This document shows positions 2,383 through 36,513 of a stretch of 46,206 nucleotides of DNA, one piece after another. Under the pieces are notes generated by a model that saw nothing but the letters and a program-made list of their open reading frames with translations, made no database searches and was not told the origin of the DNA. Source of the stretch: a virus; the IMG/VR virus record IMGVR_UViG_3300017759_000011, positions 1 through 46,206 of that record; one strand, 5' to 3'. Each line of letters opens with the position of its first letter. Positions within the stretch are counted from its first letter, which is position 1. The translations under genes and the position numbers were made by a program.

Positions 2383-5300
2383 ATGACAGAAACAAGAATC
2401 AAGTTTAATAGTATCGTTAAGAATCAACTTCCAACCTATGTTGAGAATGAGTTCCCCTTGATCGGGGAATTCCTGAAAGAATATTATAATTCTCAAGAAT
2501 ATAAAAGTGGTCCTTTAGACTTGATTCAAAATATTGATCAATATGTTAAAATTGATGAGCAAACCACTATCAATCATGAAGTATTTTTAAGATTAGATAT
2601 TGATGAATTTGATGAGGTAATAAATGTTGATCTCAGAGAATCACCTTTAGGAACGGATAGATTTCCAGATTCTTATGGATTAATAAAAATAAACGATGAG
2701 GTAATATTATATACCGGAAAAACTGATTCTAGTTTCACTGGTTGTGTTAGAGGATTTAGTGGAGTAACATCATATAGATCAGACTCTAATCAAGGGGATC
2801 TTGTATTTAAATCTACTGAGGCGTCTGAGCATAAAAAAGGTGCATCAATCGAAAATTTAACATGCACTTTTTTAAAAGAATTTTTACTTAAAACAAAAAT
2901 ACAATTACTTCCAGGGTTGTCTCAAAGGAATCTAAGTTCAAATTTAAATGTTGGCAATTTTATCAAGCAGTCAAAAGATTTTTATTCAAGTAAAGGAACA
3001 GATCAATCATATAAGATCCTATTCAATGTTTTATACGGCGAAAATGTAAACATTATTAGACCAAGAGAGAATTTATTCACACCATCAAATGCATTCAATC
3101 TTGTCTCATCAAACTTTGTTGTTGAAGAATTAACTGGTGATCCATTAGAGTTACAAAATAGAACAATTTTTCAAGATTTTGAAGGATCAAAAGCATATAC
3201 TCCTATTTTTAATGTAGAAAAAATTGGTAGAAGTAGTAAACATTTTAAGGTTTCTTTTGATGGTGGATACAATAGGGACTCTAGAGTTAGTGGATCCACG
3301 TATGGTAGATTTGACACTAGTTCAAAAACTCATATAATTGGCGATGTATCAATCGGATCAACAATTATATATGTTGATTCTACTATTGGATTTCCTAATT
3401 CTGGTGAATTATATGTCACATATCCTACCGGAATCACTGCTACTTCTGGAATTGTATCATATACTTCCAGGACATCCACACAATTTCTTGGATGCACTAA
3501 TATTATTGAGCCCTTACTTGATGGTGAAGGAATAACTGATAGAAATTTCTTATTTACACAATCCGAAGAGGAGTCAGATTCTATAGTTGTTAGATTAGGA
3601 CCTATTTTAACTGGATTTACTAATCAAAGTGATGTATTTGACTTAAAATCTGGAGATGAGATTTCTGTCAAAACACTAGGTGTGGAGGAGGATAATTTTA
3701 AATTTAATAACTGGATATACAATAATTCTGTACAGTATTTTATATCTGAGATAAATTATGTATCAATACAAAAATATGAACTGACTTTAGAAAAAAATCA
3801 TTATATTAGACTTGGAGATTCCTTATTAATCATTGATGAAAATTCAATAAAAACCATTCAAGCAGAAGTTCTCGATATTATTACATCAAAAAAGATAATT
3901 GTTGTTTTAAAATCGGAATCAACACTTGACACTAATTTAGTATATTATGTAAAAAAACCAATTAAAAAAGTTAATTCGGAAACTTTTCCATATTTAAGCA
4001 ATTTTCACGCTAATATTCAGAATGTTTATAAAAAGCAATACACTGATTCTCTATTAGTATCATCAAACTCTTTACCCGCATATCAATCACAATCTATAGT
4101 ATCAAATAAAAATAGAGTTTTATTTAGTGGCACATTTTCTGGAGATACCTTAGAATTACTAGATCATGGATATTATACTGGCGAATTAGTATATTACACT
4201 CCAGAAAAAAGATTAGTTGAAACTGAAACTGACGATGGCACAAAAAGATCAAGGATTTATATAGATTCATCACTATTTGATGCAAAAAATGGAGGTGAAG
4301 GTGAATATTTTCTATACAGAGTAGATAATAATAATATTAAATTAGCAAGATCAAGATCAGATTTATTTTTTGGAAAATTTATTCAATTAAATGAATCAAA
4401 GACTGTAGTTGACAACTCTATTGAACCTGCTTTTTCAAGTTTAAATAATTTAGAACCACAAAGAATTTATAGAGAAATTTCCACACCTCTTTATTCTGGA
4501 AAATTTACAAAAACAAATCCGGGAGCAACTGGAATTTTAGTAAATGGTGTGGAAATTTTAAATTATAAGTCAAAAGATTTTATTCAACATGGAAAAGTTG
4601 AAAAAATTGATGTAATTTCTTCAGGAAATGGATTTGATGTAATTAATCCACCGTTATTAGATATAAGTGATGACATTGGAATTGGAGCCACCGGATTTTT
4701 GGCGATAAATGGGAATCTTAGTGAAATAAGAATAATTGATCAAGGTTTTGATTTGATTGATACTCCCGTTGTATCAATCACAGGTGGAAATGGAAAAAAT
4801 GCTAAAGCTTTAGCATCTACAAAACAAATAACTTATGCACCGGAGTTTTCATCTAATATTGAGGTATCAATAACAAATAATTCTATTGGATTTTCAACTT
4901 TTCATAAATTCCGTGGTGGCGAAGAAGTAGTTTACAAAACCAGGTCTCAAAAAGGTGTTGGTGGATTATCTACCGATTTTAATTATTATGCCTCCATAGT
5001 TGATGAAAATACTGTAAAACTACACACTGATATTGGTGATGCTCTAGCGGGTATTAACACTGTTGTATTAACAAGTTCTGGGATAGGTAGACATTCTTTA
5101 GAATGTGTACAAAAAAAATCCATATTAAGTGCGATTAATATAGTAGACAGAGGAACTGGGTATGAAAATAAAAAACGCTCTGCATTGTCCTCTGGTATAA
5201 GCACTTCATCTAATAATATAACAATTGAAGATCATGACTATAAATCGGGTGAGATTATAAAATATCTTGGTGGAAGTGGAAATCAAATTGTCGGTATAAC

Positions 5301-8300: not shown

Positions 8301-11300
8301 TGTAGATAAAAATTATACAAAACTTTGGGAATCGGATCTATCCTCTTCTGTGTTTGATGTAAATAGAGAAAACAGATCTGGATTATCTACCACCTCTAAA
8401 GTATCGGTATCAATAGGAAAAACAACACCATCAACTCTATATTACAAACTCGACCCAGTTACCAGTAATAATTTACCTAAAATAAAATCTGAAGTGATGG
8501 TCGATGATGAAATCATCGGAAGTGGTAGTATAGAAGTTAGAAATAGTGTCTATAATGGACTTAGAAGAGTTTCAGTTGCCGGAACAAATTTTTTCAAATT
8601 CTCATTAAATGAGGTTCCGGAAAATAATTCATATGTATCTACGTCATCATCTATATCGTATACTACAAACTGTACTCACACAAACGGACCAATATCTGCA
8701 GTCGAAATAGTCAATCCTGGTAAAAATTATGATTCTTTACCAGACATCATCTCAGTAAATTCCTTAAATGGATCTAAAGCAGAACTCGTTTGCGTAAGTA
8801 AAAATATTGGAAAGATTCAAAATGTTTCTATTAAAGATATTGGATATGATTATCCAACTGACAAAACACTTAAACCTAGTGCCATACTTCCTCAGATAAT
8901 TAAACTAGATTCATCAGCAAAGATAGAATCGATTACTGTATCTTCAATCGCTAAGGGTTATACCTCTGCACCAAAACTTTTAACTCTTGATGGAAAGACA
9001 AATCAAATAGTGTCTGATTTAGATCTAGAGTATCATATAGATGATAATACCGTAACTATTCTACAGAATACAAGAGGAATAAATTTCTCCACGCCAACAA
9101 TAATACCTATTGAAAATAATAATGGAGTAGGCATTAACAATTTAGAGTATGATACTTCGACTAAAGAAGTTACAATAAGATTATCATCTGGTTTTTCATC
9201 ACTAAATGATTTCCCATTTGCAGTTGGAGATAAAGTGTTTATTGAAAATATAAGTGTTGGTATTAATACATCATTTATAGGATTTAACTCAAAAAATTAT
9301 GGGTATAAGTTATTCACACTAACTTCAGTTACTCCAAATATCGGGGGGATTGGAACTGTATCGTATAATCTTACTGAAGATTTAAGTGATGGTCAAGATC
9401 CAGGAAAAGCAGATTTAATTAGATCTTCTGGAATTATAACTCCTGAAAAATATTTTCCAATATTTGATATTGATCTAGTAAGTAAAGATTTTATTTCAGG
9501 TGAGCAAATTGTATCTGGAAATAAAACCGGAAAGGTTCAAAGTTGGGATAACACAACAAAAACTCTAAGGGTTTTATCTAAAGATACTTTTAAAGTTGAT
9601 GATAAAATTAGAGGATTGTCTTCAGACTCGTTGGCAATAAGTTCTGAAGTAAAGTCATATGAGACTTATTTTGAAGTTGGTGCAAAGACCGAAATTTTTG
9701 AGGGAAATCAAACTATATCTGGTTTCTTGAATAATAATCTGCAAAGAGTCCAGGATAATGATTATTATCAGAACTTCTCATATTCCATAAAATCAAGGAT
9801 ACCATTTGGAGAATGGGACAATATTGTTTCAAGCACAAATCATACCATAGGATTTAAAAAATTTAGCGACCTCCAAATAGAATCAAGAAATATAGATCAA
9901 CCAGCTAATGTTGGATTGACAACATCGCAAACAGATTTGACAATTGATTATGGAATAAATGAATATATTGACACAAATTGTGTATTCGATTTTGACTTAG
10001 GAAGAGAAAACAATATTAATTTTGATGACACTTCAGTGTTGTCTGATGAAATAGTCTTTAAGAGCAAAATTCTCTCTGATTTTAGTGAGTCTGTTGGAAA
10101 TAGAGTTGTTTCTATAGATGATGTAAGTCCATTATTCAATAATACTCCAAGAGCAACAAAATTTGTTGCATTAGATACGTTTAATTTATCCGAGTTCAGA
10201 AGTAAAAAGTATTTTATTTACTTAAAAGATACAAGATTTGTAAAAGAAAGGCAATTTGAAATCGTATCTCTTATTCATGATAGTGCTTCAAATGGTTATC
10301 TTAATCAATATGGAAAAATAGACTCTGTGAAAGATTTAGGATCCTTTGACTTTGCTATCTCAGGATCCGTTGGAGAGTTTAGATTCTTCCCAATAAATTC
10401 AAGAGTAAATGATTACGATGTATGTGCATTATCTTTCAATTTGGATGACAATCTACTTGGAATTGGAACTACATCTATTGGTGAATCTATCATACAAAGT
10501 AATAGTGTTTCAGTTCCATCTGTACCAACAAATATTGTTAGCATCGGAAATACTTATCATTCACTCAAAGTTTTAGTAACTATAGCACCTGATGTTGAGA
10601 ATGTATCTTTTGGATCTACCGCAACATTTAATACTAGAGAGTTTGAATATCAAGAATTAAATATCTGCCATGATGGTAATGAAGTGTCATTACTAGAATT
10701 TGGCAAATTGACAACATCCATTGGAGAAGTATCTGCTGCTGGATTTGGAACTTATAATGCATATCTTGATGGAAATAATCTCAAAGTAGATTTCCATCCA
10801 GAAGTTGGTATTGGAACAACTTCTGTAGTTAACACTATTGTTGTTGGACTATCTACCTCATCTTCTGGTATATCAACTGTAGATATGAAGCACGCTAGAC
10901 TTGAGTCTAGAATAACTCAAATTTCTTCATCTGGATCTCCAACTGAAAATGTTATTGGTCAGTATCCAAGTCACATTTCACAAGAAGTTGATAGGTATGA
11001 TTCATCATATTGTTTGATTCAACTTCATGATACCACTAATGATAGGTATGAGTTCTTAGAGCATATAGTAGTTGATGATCATGTTGAAGGAGTATTAATT
11101 AATCAAACTTTTGATACTGAATTTGCAAATGTGAGGACACACAGCGGTCTCGGAACTTTTGGCAGCAGAATAGTTACTGATGGAGTTGGTATCGCAGCTA
11201 CAACTGAGATTTTATTTACACCAGAACCAAATATCAATGTTAACGTTCATGTCTATATGAATGCCTTAAGAGTTGAGGATGATAATAAAGATTTTATTAA

Positions 11301-32313: not shown

Positions 32314-35300
32314 ATGGCAATTTCAGAAGCACAAAAGGTTGATTTTCTTTGGAAGAAACTTGGTTACGGAGTTTCCAAGACCGATACTAATGCCAACAAG
32401 AAGGCAACTAATGAATCAATAGCAAGTCCTCTACTCCTAAGAGGAAATAATGTATTATCTCAGGCAGATCTAATCCCAGGCACAATGCCAGCATCTTCTG
32501 CTGGTGTAGTTACTGTATATCCAACTTCTGCGCCTGATGAAACCACAGCAGATGCATCGGCATCATCTAATAGAACTTGGAAAACTGGTTTAATAGATTG
32601 GATTCCTCCAGAGATTGGATCAACTTATCTTGTAAAGGTATATGTTCATACTGCTGGAGATGCTGCTAACGCTGCTAGTAGTGGAACTCAGGTATTCGGT
32701 GCTGGTTCTGGTAATAATGATGAATGGTTTTTTGACTATCAATCGGGTACTTTGCACTTTATCGGAACAAATCTTCCAAACGGTGTAAATTTTTCTGGAA
32801 AGAGTGTTTATGTAAGTGGTGCAAGGTATACCGGCATTAAAGGCGTATCAGTTCCAGGATCTACTGGGTCGTTTAGTGATGTTAATGCAACTGGTATTGG
32901 CACATTTCAATCTGGTGGTAGATTAGATGATGTTCAGATCGGTAGAACAGCAGCTAATGAGATTGATACAACGGCAGGAAATCTTATCTTAGATTCTGCT
33001 GGTGGAACAGTTCAGATTACTGATAATGCATCTGTTACTGGCAATACTACCCTTAGCGGAACACTAGATGTAGATGGGCAGACTGATTTAGATGTATTAA
33101 ACGTTGCTGAGACCGCCACATTTAGTGCTGCAATCGATGCAAATGGGTCTTTGGATGTTGATGGTCATACAGAGCTTGATGACGTTAATATCGCTGGTGT
33201 TGCGACTGCTACGGCAGTTCATTTAGGTGCTGAGGGATCGGCACTTCGTCTTACCACTAATACAATTTCTGGTCCTGCAACTATTACGATTGACCCTGCT
33301 GGTGTCGGAGACAACACAGGAACACTTGTCGTTGCTGGTAATCTCCAAGTTGACGGAACACAAACCACCATTAACTCAACGACAGTTAATATAGATGATA
33401 AAAATATTCAGGTTGCCACTGGTGCTGCTAATGATGCAGCTGCTGATGGTGCCGGTATTACTGTTGATTCTGGTGAGGGAGACAAGACCTTCCAGTTTGA
33501 AGCAACCGGTGACAACTGGGGTGCATCAGAGAACTTAAATCTTGCCTCTGGTAAAGCATATAAGATTAACAATACAAGCGTTCTGAATGCTACAACTCTT
33601 GGCGGTGCAGTTGTCAACTCTTCACTTACAAGTGTTGGAACTCTTACAGGTCTCACAGTTTCAGGTAATGCGTCTGTTGAAGGTAATGTAGACCTTGGTA
33701 ATGCAACATCTGATACAATTACCGCAACTGGTAGATTTGATAGTGATTTAGTTCCATCTACTGATGATGCAAGAGATTTAGGAACGTCATCTTTACAGTG
33801 GAGAAATCTTCACTTAGATGGCACAGCAAACATCGATGCTTTAGTTGCCGATACTGCTGATATTGATGGTGGTAGCATCGATGGTGCTGCGATTGGTGCT
33901 AACTCTGCCTCAACTGGTGCTTTTACAAGTTTAACTGCGAGCGGTAATGCTACAGTAACAGGTAATATAGATGTAGATGGACATACAAATCTTGATAATG
34001 TAAGTATTGCAGGTGTCACAACTCATGCTGCTGGAGTAACATTCTCTGGTGCAATTGATGCCAATTCTACTGCTACATTTGCTACAGCAGTTGTAGAGGA
34101 TCTCACAAATAATCGTGTAGTTATCGCTGGTTCTGGTGGAGAACTTGAAGATAGTGCAAATCTTACCTTTGATGGGTCAACTCTTAATGTTGTTGGACTT
34201 GCAGATCTTGATGATGTAAATGTATCTAGTGCTGCTACTGTATCAACACTGATTGATGTTCAGGGTTATATAAAGGGATATAAGTTCCTCTCTGCTCCTT
34301 ATGGAAGCACAACAACCATTACTGTTACTGTTGCGAGTAAAGATGCAACTCACAGATATCAAGGAACTGGTAGTGGATCTGGATATTTACTGGATGGAGT
34401 TCAGGCTCCTATCCTTACTTTGACTCCAGGTAGAACTTATAAATTTGATACATCACATTCAAGTAATAGTGGTCATCCATTCCTCTTCTATATGGAAGCG
34501 GATAAGACTACTCAGTATACTACAAATGTTACCACAAACGGTACAGCAGGTAATGCTGGAGCATACACGCAGATTGTAGTTGGAGATGAAACTCCATCTG
34601 TGCTTCACTATCAGTGCTCTGCTCATGGTTACATGGGTAACGCTGTTGTTACTAACTCTAATGCAATCAACTCAAACTATGCCGCAACTCTTCGCGGTGG
34701 ATTGAGTGTTACTGGAACAACAACGCTTGGAACTCTCGCATTCTCTGCTGGTGGTTCCTCTGTTACTGGTGTTCTAGACGAAGATAATTTTGCTAGCGAC
34801 AGCAATACAAAACTTGCAACTCAACAGTCTATCAAGGCATATGTTAATTCTCAAATCACTGGATCTGATTTAGACTTCCAAGGAGATAGTGGTGGCGCAC
34901 TTTCAATCGATCTTGATAGTGAAACTCTGACTATCGCAGGCACATCTAATGAAATTGAAACCTCTGGTTCAGGAAACACTCTTACCATTGGTCTTCCTAA
35001 CGATGTAACGATTGGAAATAATCTCACAGTAACCAACGATCTTACAGTTACAGGAAACACCATCAAGTCAAGTGGTGGTACAACTGCTCTTACTTTAAGT
35101 GGTGATGATGTAACTGTTGCAGACGACTTGACCGTAACTGGTGTCAGTAACGCCGAAAGATTTGCAGGTCACTCATTTATTCAGGCACCTCATAATGGAA
35201 CTGTAAAGACAATCACTGTTACCGTTGCTTCCAAGACAGCAGCACATAGGTATCAAGGAACTGGTAGTGGCTCTGCTTATGTCCTTGATGGAGTACAAGC

Positions 35301-36513
35301 ACCCTTCCTGACTTTAACTCCAGGTAGAACTTATAAGTTTGATACCTCCGATTCTAGTAACGGTGGTCATCCATTCCGTTTCTATCTTGAAGCAGCTAAG
35401 ACAACTGCTTATACAACTGGTGTTACTGTAAATGGAACAGCAGGTAGTTCAGGTTCTTACACCCAGATTGAAGTATCTGATACCACACCTGTAGTTTTGC
35501 ATTATCAATGCTCTTCTCATGGTTACATGGGTAATGCAGTCAATACTAACTCTTCCACAGCAACAAATGTTACAGCAAATTCTGTTGCTCTTGGTACAGA
35601 TACAACCGGTAACTATGTTGCAACTGTTGCTGGCACTGCAAATGAAGTAGATGTTTCTGGTAGTGGTTCTGAAACTGCTGCTGTAACGATCGGTCTTCCA
35701 AATAGTGTTACAATCACAACCAATCTTACAACTCCACAACTGACATTGAATGGCACTGCAGTAACTGCAGTAAATGATGAGGACAATATGTCTTCCAACA
35801 GTGCTACAGCACTTGCTACACAGCAATCAATCAAGGCATATGTTGACGCTGAGGTTGGTGCAGTTGATGTAACTACATCTATCGCAGGTGATTCTGGAAC
35901 TGGCACAGTTTCTACATCACAAACTCTTACTATTAATGGTACAGCAAATGAGGTTGAGACTTCTGTTTCTGGACAGACATTTACCATTGGACTTCCAAAT
36001 ACAGTCAATGTAACAACTGCGATTGATGTTCCAACTGTTGAAGCAACTAATCTCAAAGCAAGAGACGGCACCGCTGCAATTACCATTACTGATTCTACAG
36101 GTGCTGTTGCAACTGCTTCTAATCTAACTGTTGGCGGTAACTTAGTTGTTAATGGATCTACCACACAGGTTAATTCCACAATAACAACAATACAAGACCA
36201 ACTCATTGAACTGGGTACAGATAGTGGTTCTGCTCCATCATCCGACCTAAACAGAGATATTGGTGTTATATTCCACTGGCACGATGGAAGCAATCCATTC
36301 AAAGCTGGTGTTTATTTTGATGATAGCACCGGTCGTATTGTTGCAGCAAAGAAAGTTTCTGAGTCTGCTGGAGTTCTTACTAACAATGAAGGTGCTGGAT
36401 TTGAATCAGCAGAGTATTATGTAAGTGGTTGTACTGGAACTCAAAGAATATTTGGTTGCAGCAGCGGAGAAATCATTCTTGAGAACACAACAATTGATGC
36501 TGGAGCATTCTGA
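32314..36513 (+). CDS. Tail-fibre-like protein with two cupredoxin-like domains
   Basis: This 1399-aa protein begins 'MAISEAQKVDFLWKKLGYGVSKTD', followed by a globular N-terminal domain (to about 175) with 'FFDYQSGTLHFIG'. Fibre-type repeats then run to about 650 (for example 'NLQVDGTQTTINSTTVNIDDKN' and 'STDDARDLGTSSLQWRNLHLDG'). Two near-copies of a cupredoxin-like domain lie at about 650-780 and 950-1078. Each carries 'LTLTPGRTYKFDTS', 'GHPF' and 'LHYQCSxHGYMGNAV', giving candidate type-1 copper ligands H721/C768/H771/M774 and H1019/C1066/H1069/M1072. Two 'DED(N/F)..S.S.T..ATQQSIKAYV' units follow each copy (about 821-843 and 1155-1178). The C-terminus contains 'DIGVIFHWHDGSNPFKAGVYFDD' and ends 'IDAGAF'. 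Fibre identity is inferred from repeats and position; copper binding is inferred from ligands. Confidence 0.78.
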   Translation: MAISEAQKVDFLWKKLGYGVSKTDTNANKKATNESIASPLLLRGNNVLSQADLIPGTMPASSAGVVTVYPTSAPDETTADASASSNRTWKTGLIDWIPPEIGSTYLVKVYVHTAGDAANAASSGTQVFGAGSGNNDEWFFDYQSGTLHFIGTNLPNGVNFSGKSVYVSGARYTGIKGVSVPGSTGSFSDVNATGIGTFQSGGRLDDVQIGRTAANEIDTTAGNLILDSAGGTVQITDNASVTGNTTLSGTLDVDGQTDLDVLNVAETATFSAAIDANGSLDVDGHTELDDVNIAGVATATAVHLGAEGSALRLTTNTISGPATITIDPAGVGDNTGTLVVAGNLQVDGTQTTINSTTVNIDDKNIQVATGAANDAAADGAGITVDSGEGDKTFQFEATGDNWGASENLNLASGKAYKINNTSVLNATTLGGAVVNSSLTSVGTLTGLTVSGNASVEGNVDLGNATSDTITATGRFDSDLVPSTDDARDLGTSSLQWRNLHLDGTANIDALVADTADIDGGSIDGAAIGANSASTGAFTSLTASGNATVTGNIDVDGHTNLDNVSIAGVTTHAAGVTFSGAIDANSTATFATAVVEDLTNNRVVIAGSGGELEDSANLTFDGSTLNVVGLADLDDVNVSSAATVSTLIDVQGYIKGYKFLSAPYGSTTTITVTVASKDATHRYQGTGSGSGYLLDGVQAPILTLTPGRTYKFDTSHSSNSGHPFLFYMEADKTTQYTTNVTTNGTAGNAGAYTQIVVGDETPSVLHYQCSAHGYMGNAVVTNSNAINSNYAATLRGGLSVTGTTTLGTLAFSAGGSSVTGVLDEDNFASDSNTKLATQQSIKAYVNSQITGSDLDFQGDSGGALSIDLDSETLTIAGTSNEIETSGSGNTLTIGLPNDVTIGNNLTVTNDLTVTGNTIKSSGGTTALTLSGDDVTVADDLTVTGVSNAERFAGHSFIQAPHNGTVKTITVTVASKTAAHRYQGTGSGSAYVLDGVQAPFLTLTPGRTYKFDTSDSSNGGHPFRFYLEAAKTTAYTTGVTVNGTAGSSGSYTQIEVSDTTPVVLHYQCSSHGYMGNAVNTNSSTATNVTANSVALGTDTTGNYVATVAGTANEVDVSGSGSETAAVTIGLPNSVTITTNLTTPQLTLNGTAVTAVNDEDNMSSNSATALATQQSIKAYVDAEVGAVDVTTSIAGDSGTGTVSTSQTLTINGTANEVETSVSGQTFTIGLPNTVNVTTAIDVPTVEATNLKARDGTAAITITDSTGAVATASNLTVGGNLVVNGSTTQVNSTITTIQDQLIELGTDSGSAPSSDLNRDIGVIFHWHDGSNPFKAGVYFDDSTGRIVAAKKVSESAGVLTNNEGAGFESAEYYVSGCTGTQRIFGCSSGEIILENTTIDAGAF
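34266..34650 (+). other. Cupredoxin-like domain, copy 1
   Basis: The domain encodes a beta-rich segment with 'PGRTYKFDTSHSSNSGHPFLFY' and 'VLHYQCSAHGYMGNA'. The spacing His...(46 residues)...Cys-x2-His-x2-Met gives a full type-1 copper ligand set (H721, C768, H771, M774). No signal peptide is present, as expected for a virion part. Confidence 0.72.
35167..35544 (+). other. Cupredoxin-like domain, copy 2
   Basis: This is a second copy, most positions identical to the first, with 'PGRTYKFDTSDSSNGGHPFRFY' and 'VLHYQCSSHGYMGNAV'. The ligand set is kept in full (H1019, C1066, H1069, M1072) with the same His-to-Cys spacing. Confidence 0.72.

Follow-up and report, generated by a model that had tools for sequence, protein, structure and literature searches.

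We report that a tail-fibre-like protein encoded in an IMG/VR virus record (IMGVR_UViG_3300017759_000011, positions 1 to 46,206; this whole stretch is called the window below) contains two copies of a cupredoxin-like domain. Sequence comparisons and a structure model suggest that each copy is quite likely a cupredoxin module in a virion fibre, that it has a type-1 copper site, and that the metal site itself is selected. The features are as follows.

32314..36513, + strand: tail-fibre-like protein of 1399 amino acids (aa), carrying both domains (open reading frame, ORF; PHROG tail fiber phrog_30742, E 1.1e-125)
34267..34680, + strand: cupredoxin-like domain, copy 1 (family profile E 4.8e-68; AlphaFold model of 34273-34671)
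34474..34476, + strand: His721, putative copper ligand, copy 1
34615..34635, + strand: Cys768-x2-His771-x2-Met774, putative copper-ligand loop, copy 1
35155..35568, + strand: cupredoxin-like domain, copy 2 (family profile E 1.1e-68; 70.4% identity with copy 1)
35368..35370, + strand: His1019, putative copper ligand, copy 2
35509..35529, + strand: Cys1066-x2-His1069-x2-Met1072, putative copper-ligand loop, copy 2

Two domain copies with a complete ligand set

An earlier note on this DNA, made from the letters alone, had described two near-copies in this protein, each with GHPF and YQCSxHGYMGN at equal spacing. This description was accurate: over the profile-defined domain (about 135 residues each) the copies are 70.4% identical, GHPF begins at residues 720 and 1018 and CSxHGYMGN at 768 and 1066, and 47 residues separate His721 from Cys768 as well as His1019 from Cys1066. 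The span given for the pair, 34266-35544, does hold the domains, but its end is slightly short, as the profile puts the end of copy 2 at 35568. The type-1 copper ligands His, Cys, His and Met, which had been described as intact, are present in both copies. The ligand loop of amicyanin has the spacing C-x2-H-x2-M, and a loop of this type occurs in each copy. Only four Cys (768, 1066, 1373 and 1382) and six Met are found in the protein, two of the four Cys sit in C-x2-H-x2-M, and six-frame translation of the window gave one other match resembling this motif, on the - strand at 10669 and with a longer spacing pattern. Because Cys and Met are few in the protein and the motif is rare across the window, the ligand motifs are more than chance.

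Both copies were also detected in three related loci (L001, L002 and L005) with 95-100% identity, copy 1 to copy 1 and copy 2 to copy 2; the second copy of L002 is truncated by the locus end, and L001 and L002 are possibly one virus. A fourth locus, L016, bears its own pair. Since pairs recur in these loci, the duplication is real and no assembly artefact of the record, and the copy-to-copy identities date it to before the split from L005. Two domains were present in 5 of the 82 domain-bearing ORFs of the window and 79 loci.

Three ligands are kept or lost together

Retention of the ligands in two copies had been taken as a sign of selection for metal binding. At 70% identity this argument is weak, because the chance that four given residues are all the same in both copies is about one in four (0.704^4); the point is carried instead by a wider survey. 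In the family alignment (A1; 63 rows, leaving out two weak ligand-less rows), His, Cys and His were each found in 61 rows and Met in all 63. For the survey, a profile whose four ligand columns were blinded to avoid circularity was applied to the collected loci. It yielded 276 matches, 266 of them spanning the ligand region; the ten that were dropped for missing this region included several ligand-less weak baseplate-type domains and the partial copy of L002. His, Cys and His were all kept in 213 of the 266 domains and all absent from 53, and no homologue had lost just one or two of them, as expected if the earlier proposal is right. Counted by full state, there were 212 HCHM, one HCHN and 53 triple losses; the HCHN state, assigned to L131, was a misalignment, and this domain actually reads C-x2-H-x2-M. 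Some places are counted twice among the 266 domains (e.g., L068/L164 and L089/L146), and the 214 distinct sequences comprised 179 intact, 35 lost and no partial ones. Each locus list was restricted to its 80 best relatives, out of 467, 443 and at least 597 respectively, and the motif is present in some of the seed peptides; therefore, the ratio 213:53 does not estimate a frequency.

Other conserved positions behave differently. At 90% non-redundancy, the ligand triple was partial in 0 of 112 domains, compared with 14 to 44 for 816 similarly conserved column triples, and at 70% non-redundancy in 0 of 44, compared with 2 to 14 for 286 triples. F64, Y119, V92 and G48 were each retained in all 12 of the domains in the 90% set that lack the ligands. 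Because His, Cys and His are kept or lost together while ligand-less domains keep other residues, selection probably acts on metal binding; in these sequences, the three residues behave as one, in the manner of a metal site, with independent losses that are few and of uncertain number. Met was kept in 48 of the 53 domains without the other ligands, and its conservation therefore tells little about metal. The idea that all four ligands co-vary was thus narrowed to His, Cys and His, for which the all-or-none pattern holds.

One clade of 82 domains contained both states (29 intact, 53 lost and, by motif, none partial). Its 51 distinct sequences comprised 16 intact and 35 lost, with several different replacement loops, and a tree of the post-domain part (76 of the 82 rows) needed at least four state changes. 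In this clade (L068:731-1834 and L164-L243, from marine viral contigs), the domain lies at the start of a protein of about 370 aa that belongs to PHROG 12985, a group with no function assigned. An SU10-adaptor-like ORF lies next to it, and at locus L068 a separate 331-aa ORF (3677-4672) also carries an intact domain. Assignment of the ligand-less clade protein as a T7-like tail adaptor was considered and dropped: Pfam was blank after the domain, and the SU10_adaptor match (E 6.6e-17) belongs to the neighbouring ORF.

Predicted fold

Copy 1 was modelled with AlphaFold (protein residues 654-786; 53 sequences), giving eight strands, a mean predicted local distance difference test (pLDDT) of 92.4 and a predicted template modelling score (pTM) of 0.86. 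In model numbering (protein residue minus 653), H68 lies just ahead of strand 4 (70-73), C115 closes strand 7 (110-115), and H118 and M121 lie in the loop ahead of strand 8 (123-126). In the model, the ligands thus occupy the cupredoxin places in strand order, that is, an upstream His followed by Cys, His and Met round the last loop. The fold of the cupredoxin superfamily is described as an eight-stranded Greek-key beta sandwich (PMC4059628), and the strand count and the listed Foldseek matches of the copy 1 model agree with it.

Foldseek found seven PDB matches at E<=1e-3, every one of them rusticyanin. The 50 matches listed included laccases, multicopper oxidases, nitrite reductase, AcoP, plastocyanin, rusticyanin and coagulation factor V. 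All 50 listed chains that resemble the model are members of the cupredoxin superfamily, to which we take factor V to belong. VIA-align on the Foldseek candidates gave a best Z of 9.1 (102 residues, root-mean-square deviation (rmsd) 3.1) with the N-terminal domain of copper nitrite reductase, and the 50 VIA-align matches listed were nitrite reductases, laccases or rusticyanin. The cupredoxin relationship put forward in the earlier note was therefore upheld by an eight-stranded beta model for which the PDB lists contain copper proteins throughout, with no refuting result, as well as by the profile bridge described below. Foldseek against viral models, with the same residues as query, matched "beta-sandwich proteins" of Marseillevirus- and Pithovirus-type genomes (E 1.9e-6 to 4.4e-9).

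Profile link to copper-protein families

A family-profile search of 43 records detected more distant extra copies of the domain in the same phages, ten of which make up a bridging set (A5). With hhalign, the window family aligned with the bridging set at 99.5% (98.6% when the ligands of both were masked), the bridging set with 40 plastocyanin-family sequences at 98.3% (92.5% masked), and the window family directly with the plastocyanin-family set at 55.6%, with all four ligands aligned. Both the bridging and the plastocyanin sets were chosen by C-x2-H motifs, and C, H and M are partly built into them; the upstream His of the bridging set, which was not used in selection, was invariant (10/10). 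The bridging profile matched both window domains at about 1e-15 and found 63 PDB sequences at E<=1. Among the 60 shown, 59 were copper proteins and one was not; the matches included nitrite reductase (4.6e-5, the best), plastocyanin (7.3e-4), amicyanin, pseudoazurin, rusticyanin, azurin, auracyanin and a CuA subunit. Members of the bridging set also matched PF00127 (4/10, best 5.8e-4), Cupredoxin_1 (2/10) and TIGR02657 (5/10, best 7.8e-5), all under the curated cut-offs, and PF00127, again below its cut-off, landed on family-profile stretches in three phage records (P-SSM2, ACG-2014h and P-TIM68). These profiles tie the window domains to plastocyanin, amicyanin and rusticyanin via other phage domains, the direct link being weak.

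Other weak matches were also recorded. The commonest Pfam matches over the 63 A1 members were the At5g54830-like domain (12/63, best 0.0013) and Cu-oxidase (7/63, best 7.1e-4). The former (PF25489), which was also weakly matched by 3 of the 10 bridging members, is a possible further distant relative. For the window domains themselves, CBM_4_9 was the sole Pfam match, under its cut-off (E 0.021-0.024), and NCBIfam gave none. Carbohydrate binding was set aside, as CBM_4_9 was matched by 4 of the 63 members, all weakly.

The native metal could be zinc or iron rather than copper, or the site could be a non-metal one in a cupredoxin-derived fold. Assembly in the cytoplasm would offer more zinc and iron than copper; however, type-1 copper proteins have this ligand set, order and loop, and nearly all PDB sequences shown for the bridging profile are copper proteins. 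With regard to a non-metal site, each domain has one Cys and therefore no disulphide within it. We consider these alternatives unlikely.

Evidence that weighs against a selected copper site

Several results argue against a selected type-1 copper site. With regard to selection, well-supported branches of the mixed-clade tree force only one state change, and since the losses lie mostly in one clade, the co-loss may reflect few events. With regard to sequence, no Pfam or NCBIfam copper family was matched by the window domains: PF00127 (Copper-bind) was silent in the whole window, its curated cut-off not being reached by either domain, and TIGR02657 (amicyanin; equivalog cut-off 110.2 bits) gave no match for the window family and 20.8 bits for a bridging domain. 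A phmmer search of PDB with the window domains returned two non-significant matches, neither a copper protein, and the best PDB matches of the window-family profile were also non-significant (E 0.019 and 0.043). With ligands masked, the bridge to the plastocyanin set puts the first His two columns out of register, and hhalign yields no alignment between the window family and the plastocyanin set; the direct link therefore depends on the ligands.

With regard to fold, Foldseek TM-scores were low (0.37-0.50, query-normalized) with rmsd of 5-9 A, and the match is therefore at the level of the fold and not that of a close relative; VIA-align Z values of 8-9 are close to the tool's warning level. 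The AlphaFold model of a ligand-less relative was poor (pLDDT 68), and its PDB list was headed by SO1698, annotated as an aspartic peptidase, and copper oxidases first appeared at rank 11. The evidence that the fold outlasts ligand loss is therefore from sequence only.

Weak direct sequence scores and modest TM-scores would also be expected if H, C, H and M were conserved for packing in an unrelated beta sandwich. Such a chance resemblance is highly improbable, given that the all-or-none pattern of His, Cys and His is unlike that of the 816 other column triples, that a profile bridge leads to cupredoxins, and that the PDB lists of the confident model are filled by copper proteins.

Distribution in phage records and genome assemblies

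Relatives were sought by tblastn against 50,697 phage records (E<=1e-3), with the results of each query counted separately. The window domain matched 27 records, the S-B68 form 154 (60 listed), the P-SSM2 proximal-fibre form 48 (all listed) and the intact form of the podophage-like clade 76 (40 listed). Hosts of these phages were Synechococcus, Prochlorococcus, Pelagibacter and Methylophilales, together with one lake actinobacterial phage. Among the matches listed, annotations included tail fibre, structural protein, baseplate and hypothetical protein, and copper was named in none. In two cases (S-H9-1 and S-BM3 records), the domain was matched inside proteins that carry a subtilisin-like protease or peptidase S8 annotation. 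Bridging-type domains were found in a 667-aa hypothetical protein of Prochlorococcus podophage P-GSP1 and in lake actinobacterial phage DSL-LC01 (L353 and L354).

A GTDB scan (one genome per species, A3 patterns) gave six loci, in assemblies titled Prochlorococcus, Pelagibacterales or Pelagibacter, Planctomycetaceae and Euryarchaeota. One relative (L095) lies on a 274,960-bp contig titled Pelagibacterales SAG-MED28. Another locus, L160, encodes a free 148-aa cupredoxin (SGTDRNGS...HPFYIKT) with a PF00127 match, in a Prochlorococcus-titled assembly that also holds L093. Its sequence closely resembles the P-SSM2 and P-HM2 fibre domains (L142 and L152), and a cellular source of these domains is possible.

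Protein and gene context

The 1399-aa ORF is flanked by genes for the terminase small subunit (TerS) on one side and the large subunit (TerL) on the other (PHROG). Domain-bearing genes annotated as tail fibre likewise lie between terminase genes in Synechococcus phage Bellamy and Prochlorococcus phage P-TIM68. Other PHROG genes in the window encode baseplate wedge subunits, head-tail adaptor, head closure and tail sheath stabilizer, and the window is a structural module of a T4-like phage record. PHROG 30742 (tail fiber) matched the two domains (E 8.6e-65 and 4.3e-65) as well as the whole protein. The placement of the domain in a phage fibre, as first proposed, agrees with this match but was too narrow, since relatives also occur in baseplate-type and other structural proteins.

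The sole H-x-H of the protein, a motif for which iron binding in phage fibres has been proposed, is in its C-terminal part (FHWHDG, residues 1321-1323, 36274-36282). Megablast of 24000-46206 counted 479 phage records; 411 reached >=99% identity, and most were from Escherichia and Shigella phages. These did not appear among the matches listed, and the result probably reflects a short shared word.

Possible role of the putative copper site

If the model is right, each domain would be an eight-strand beta barrel with His before strand 4 and Cys, His and Met about the strand 7-8 loop, a site that the family would keep whole or give up whole, and copper would be bound in the virion. Since little free copper is available in the cytoplasm, where phages assemble, loading would take place after lysis or in a host periplasm. 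If the fibre is a trimer, a particle with six fibres and two domains in each chain would carry about 36 coppers.

The likeliest role, which we propose tentatively, is in host-surface contact or adhesion, with the domain as a copper-dependent module. The main rival for the role is a site for copper or another metal that merely stabilizes a rigid fibre knob, with no redox or receptor function. Such a structural site is possible: the domain is part of long structural proteins with repeats and occurs again in proteins of baseplate type, and iron held by HxH motifs in the T4 long tail fibre (PMC11705849) is a precedent for metal in a fibre. On the other hand, 53 of the 266 domains lack the ligands and keep the other conserved positions, and the metal is therefore not strictly needed; in addition, a C-H-H-M set would be a costly choice for a structural metal. 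A third option is that the virion site captures copper or handles oxidants outside the cell. Many copies per particle are possible and the carriers are mostly marine phages, but the site alone speaks for this role, and tens of copper ions would be of little gain unless the host uses them, which makes scavenging or antioxidant function rather improbable. The broader picture, in which marine virions are copper-loaded and type-1 copper modules displayed on their tail fibres serve host contact via metal or electron exchange with a host-surface or periplasmic copper protein, is speculative and should be regarded as rather doubtful; in this picture, a lineage without further need of the site would lose it as a whole.

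With filled sites, virions would carry copper and be redox-active, and copper would join iron in the proposal of trace-metal-carrying marine phages, which so far concerns iron only. Isolates such as P-SSM2, Bellamy, P-TIM68 and Melnitz make the copper question directly testable, with ligand-less relatives as natural controls.

Comparison with known systems

Known cupredoxins act as free carriers or form domains of enzymes. In phages of Prochlorococcus, Synechococcus, Pelagibacter and Methylophilales, a cupredoxin-type site appears to be part of virion proteins. The cupredoxin fold and site, phage petE and iron in fibres are already known; a cupredoxin as part of a virion protein was not found among the titles and abstract openings listed in searches of an open-access library, a scope that leaves most subscription journals aside.

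Amicyanin (TIGR02657) and plastocyanin/azurin (PF00127) resemble the phage domain in predicted fold and ligand order, and amicyanin also in the C-x2-H-x2-M loop. However, these proteins are free secreted electron carriers, whereas the phage domain is an internal fibre module whose copies in the window fall below every curated cut-off. Plastocyanin of cyanophages (petE) is a copper protein of the same superfamily and is also phage-borne, being described as a host-type gene carried by cyanophages (PMC3037559). In contrast to the fibre domains, which are under the PF00127 cut-off, petE is a separate small gene and no virion part; a free PF00127 protein of 114-131 aa was present in 4 of the 10 phage records searched. 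PHROG 30742 (tail fiber) covers the window protein and both domains but names no metal site. A further related proposal concerns iron in phage tail fibres, with HxH motifs in T4 gp37 and the "Ferrojan/Trojan horse" hypothesis (PMC11705849). As presented in that source, it likewise places a transition metal on tail fibres of marine phages, where it would be relevant to host contact, but the metal, ligands and fold are different: HxH motifs in a beta helix there, and a cupredoxin domain here.

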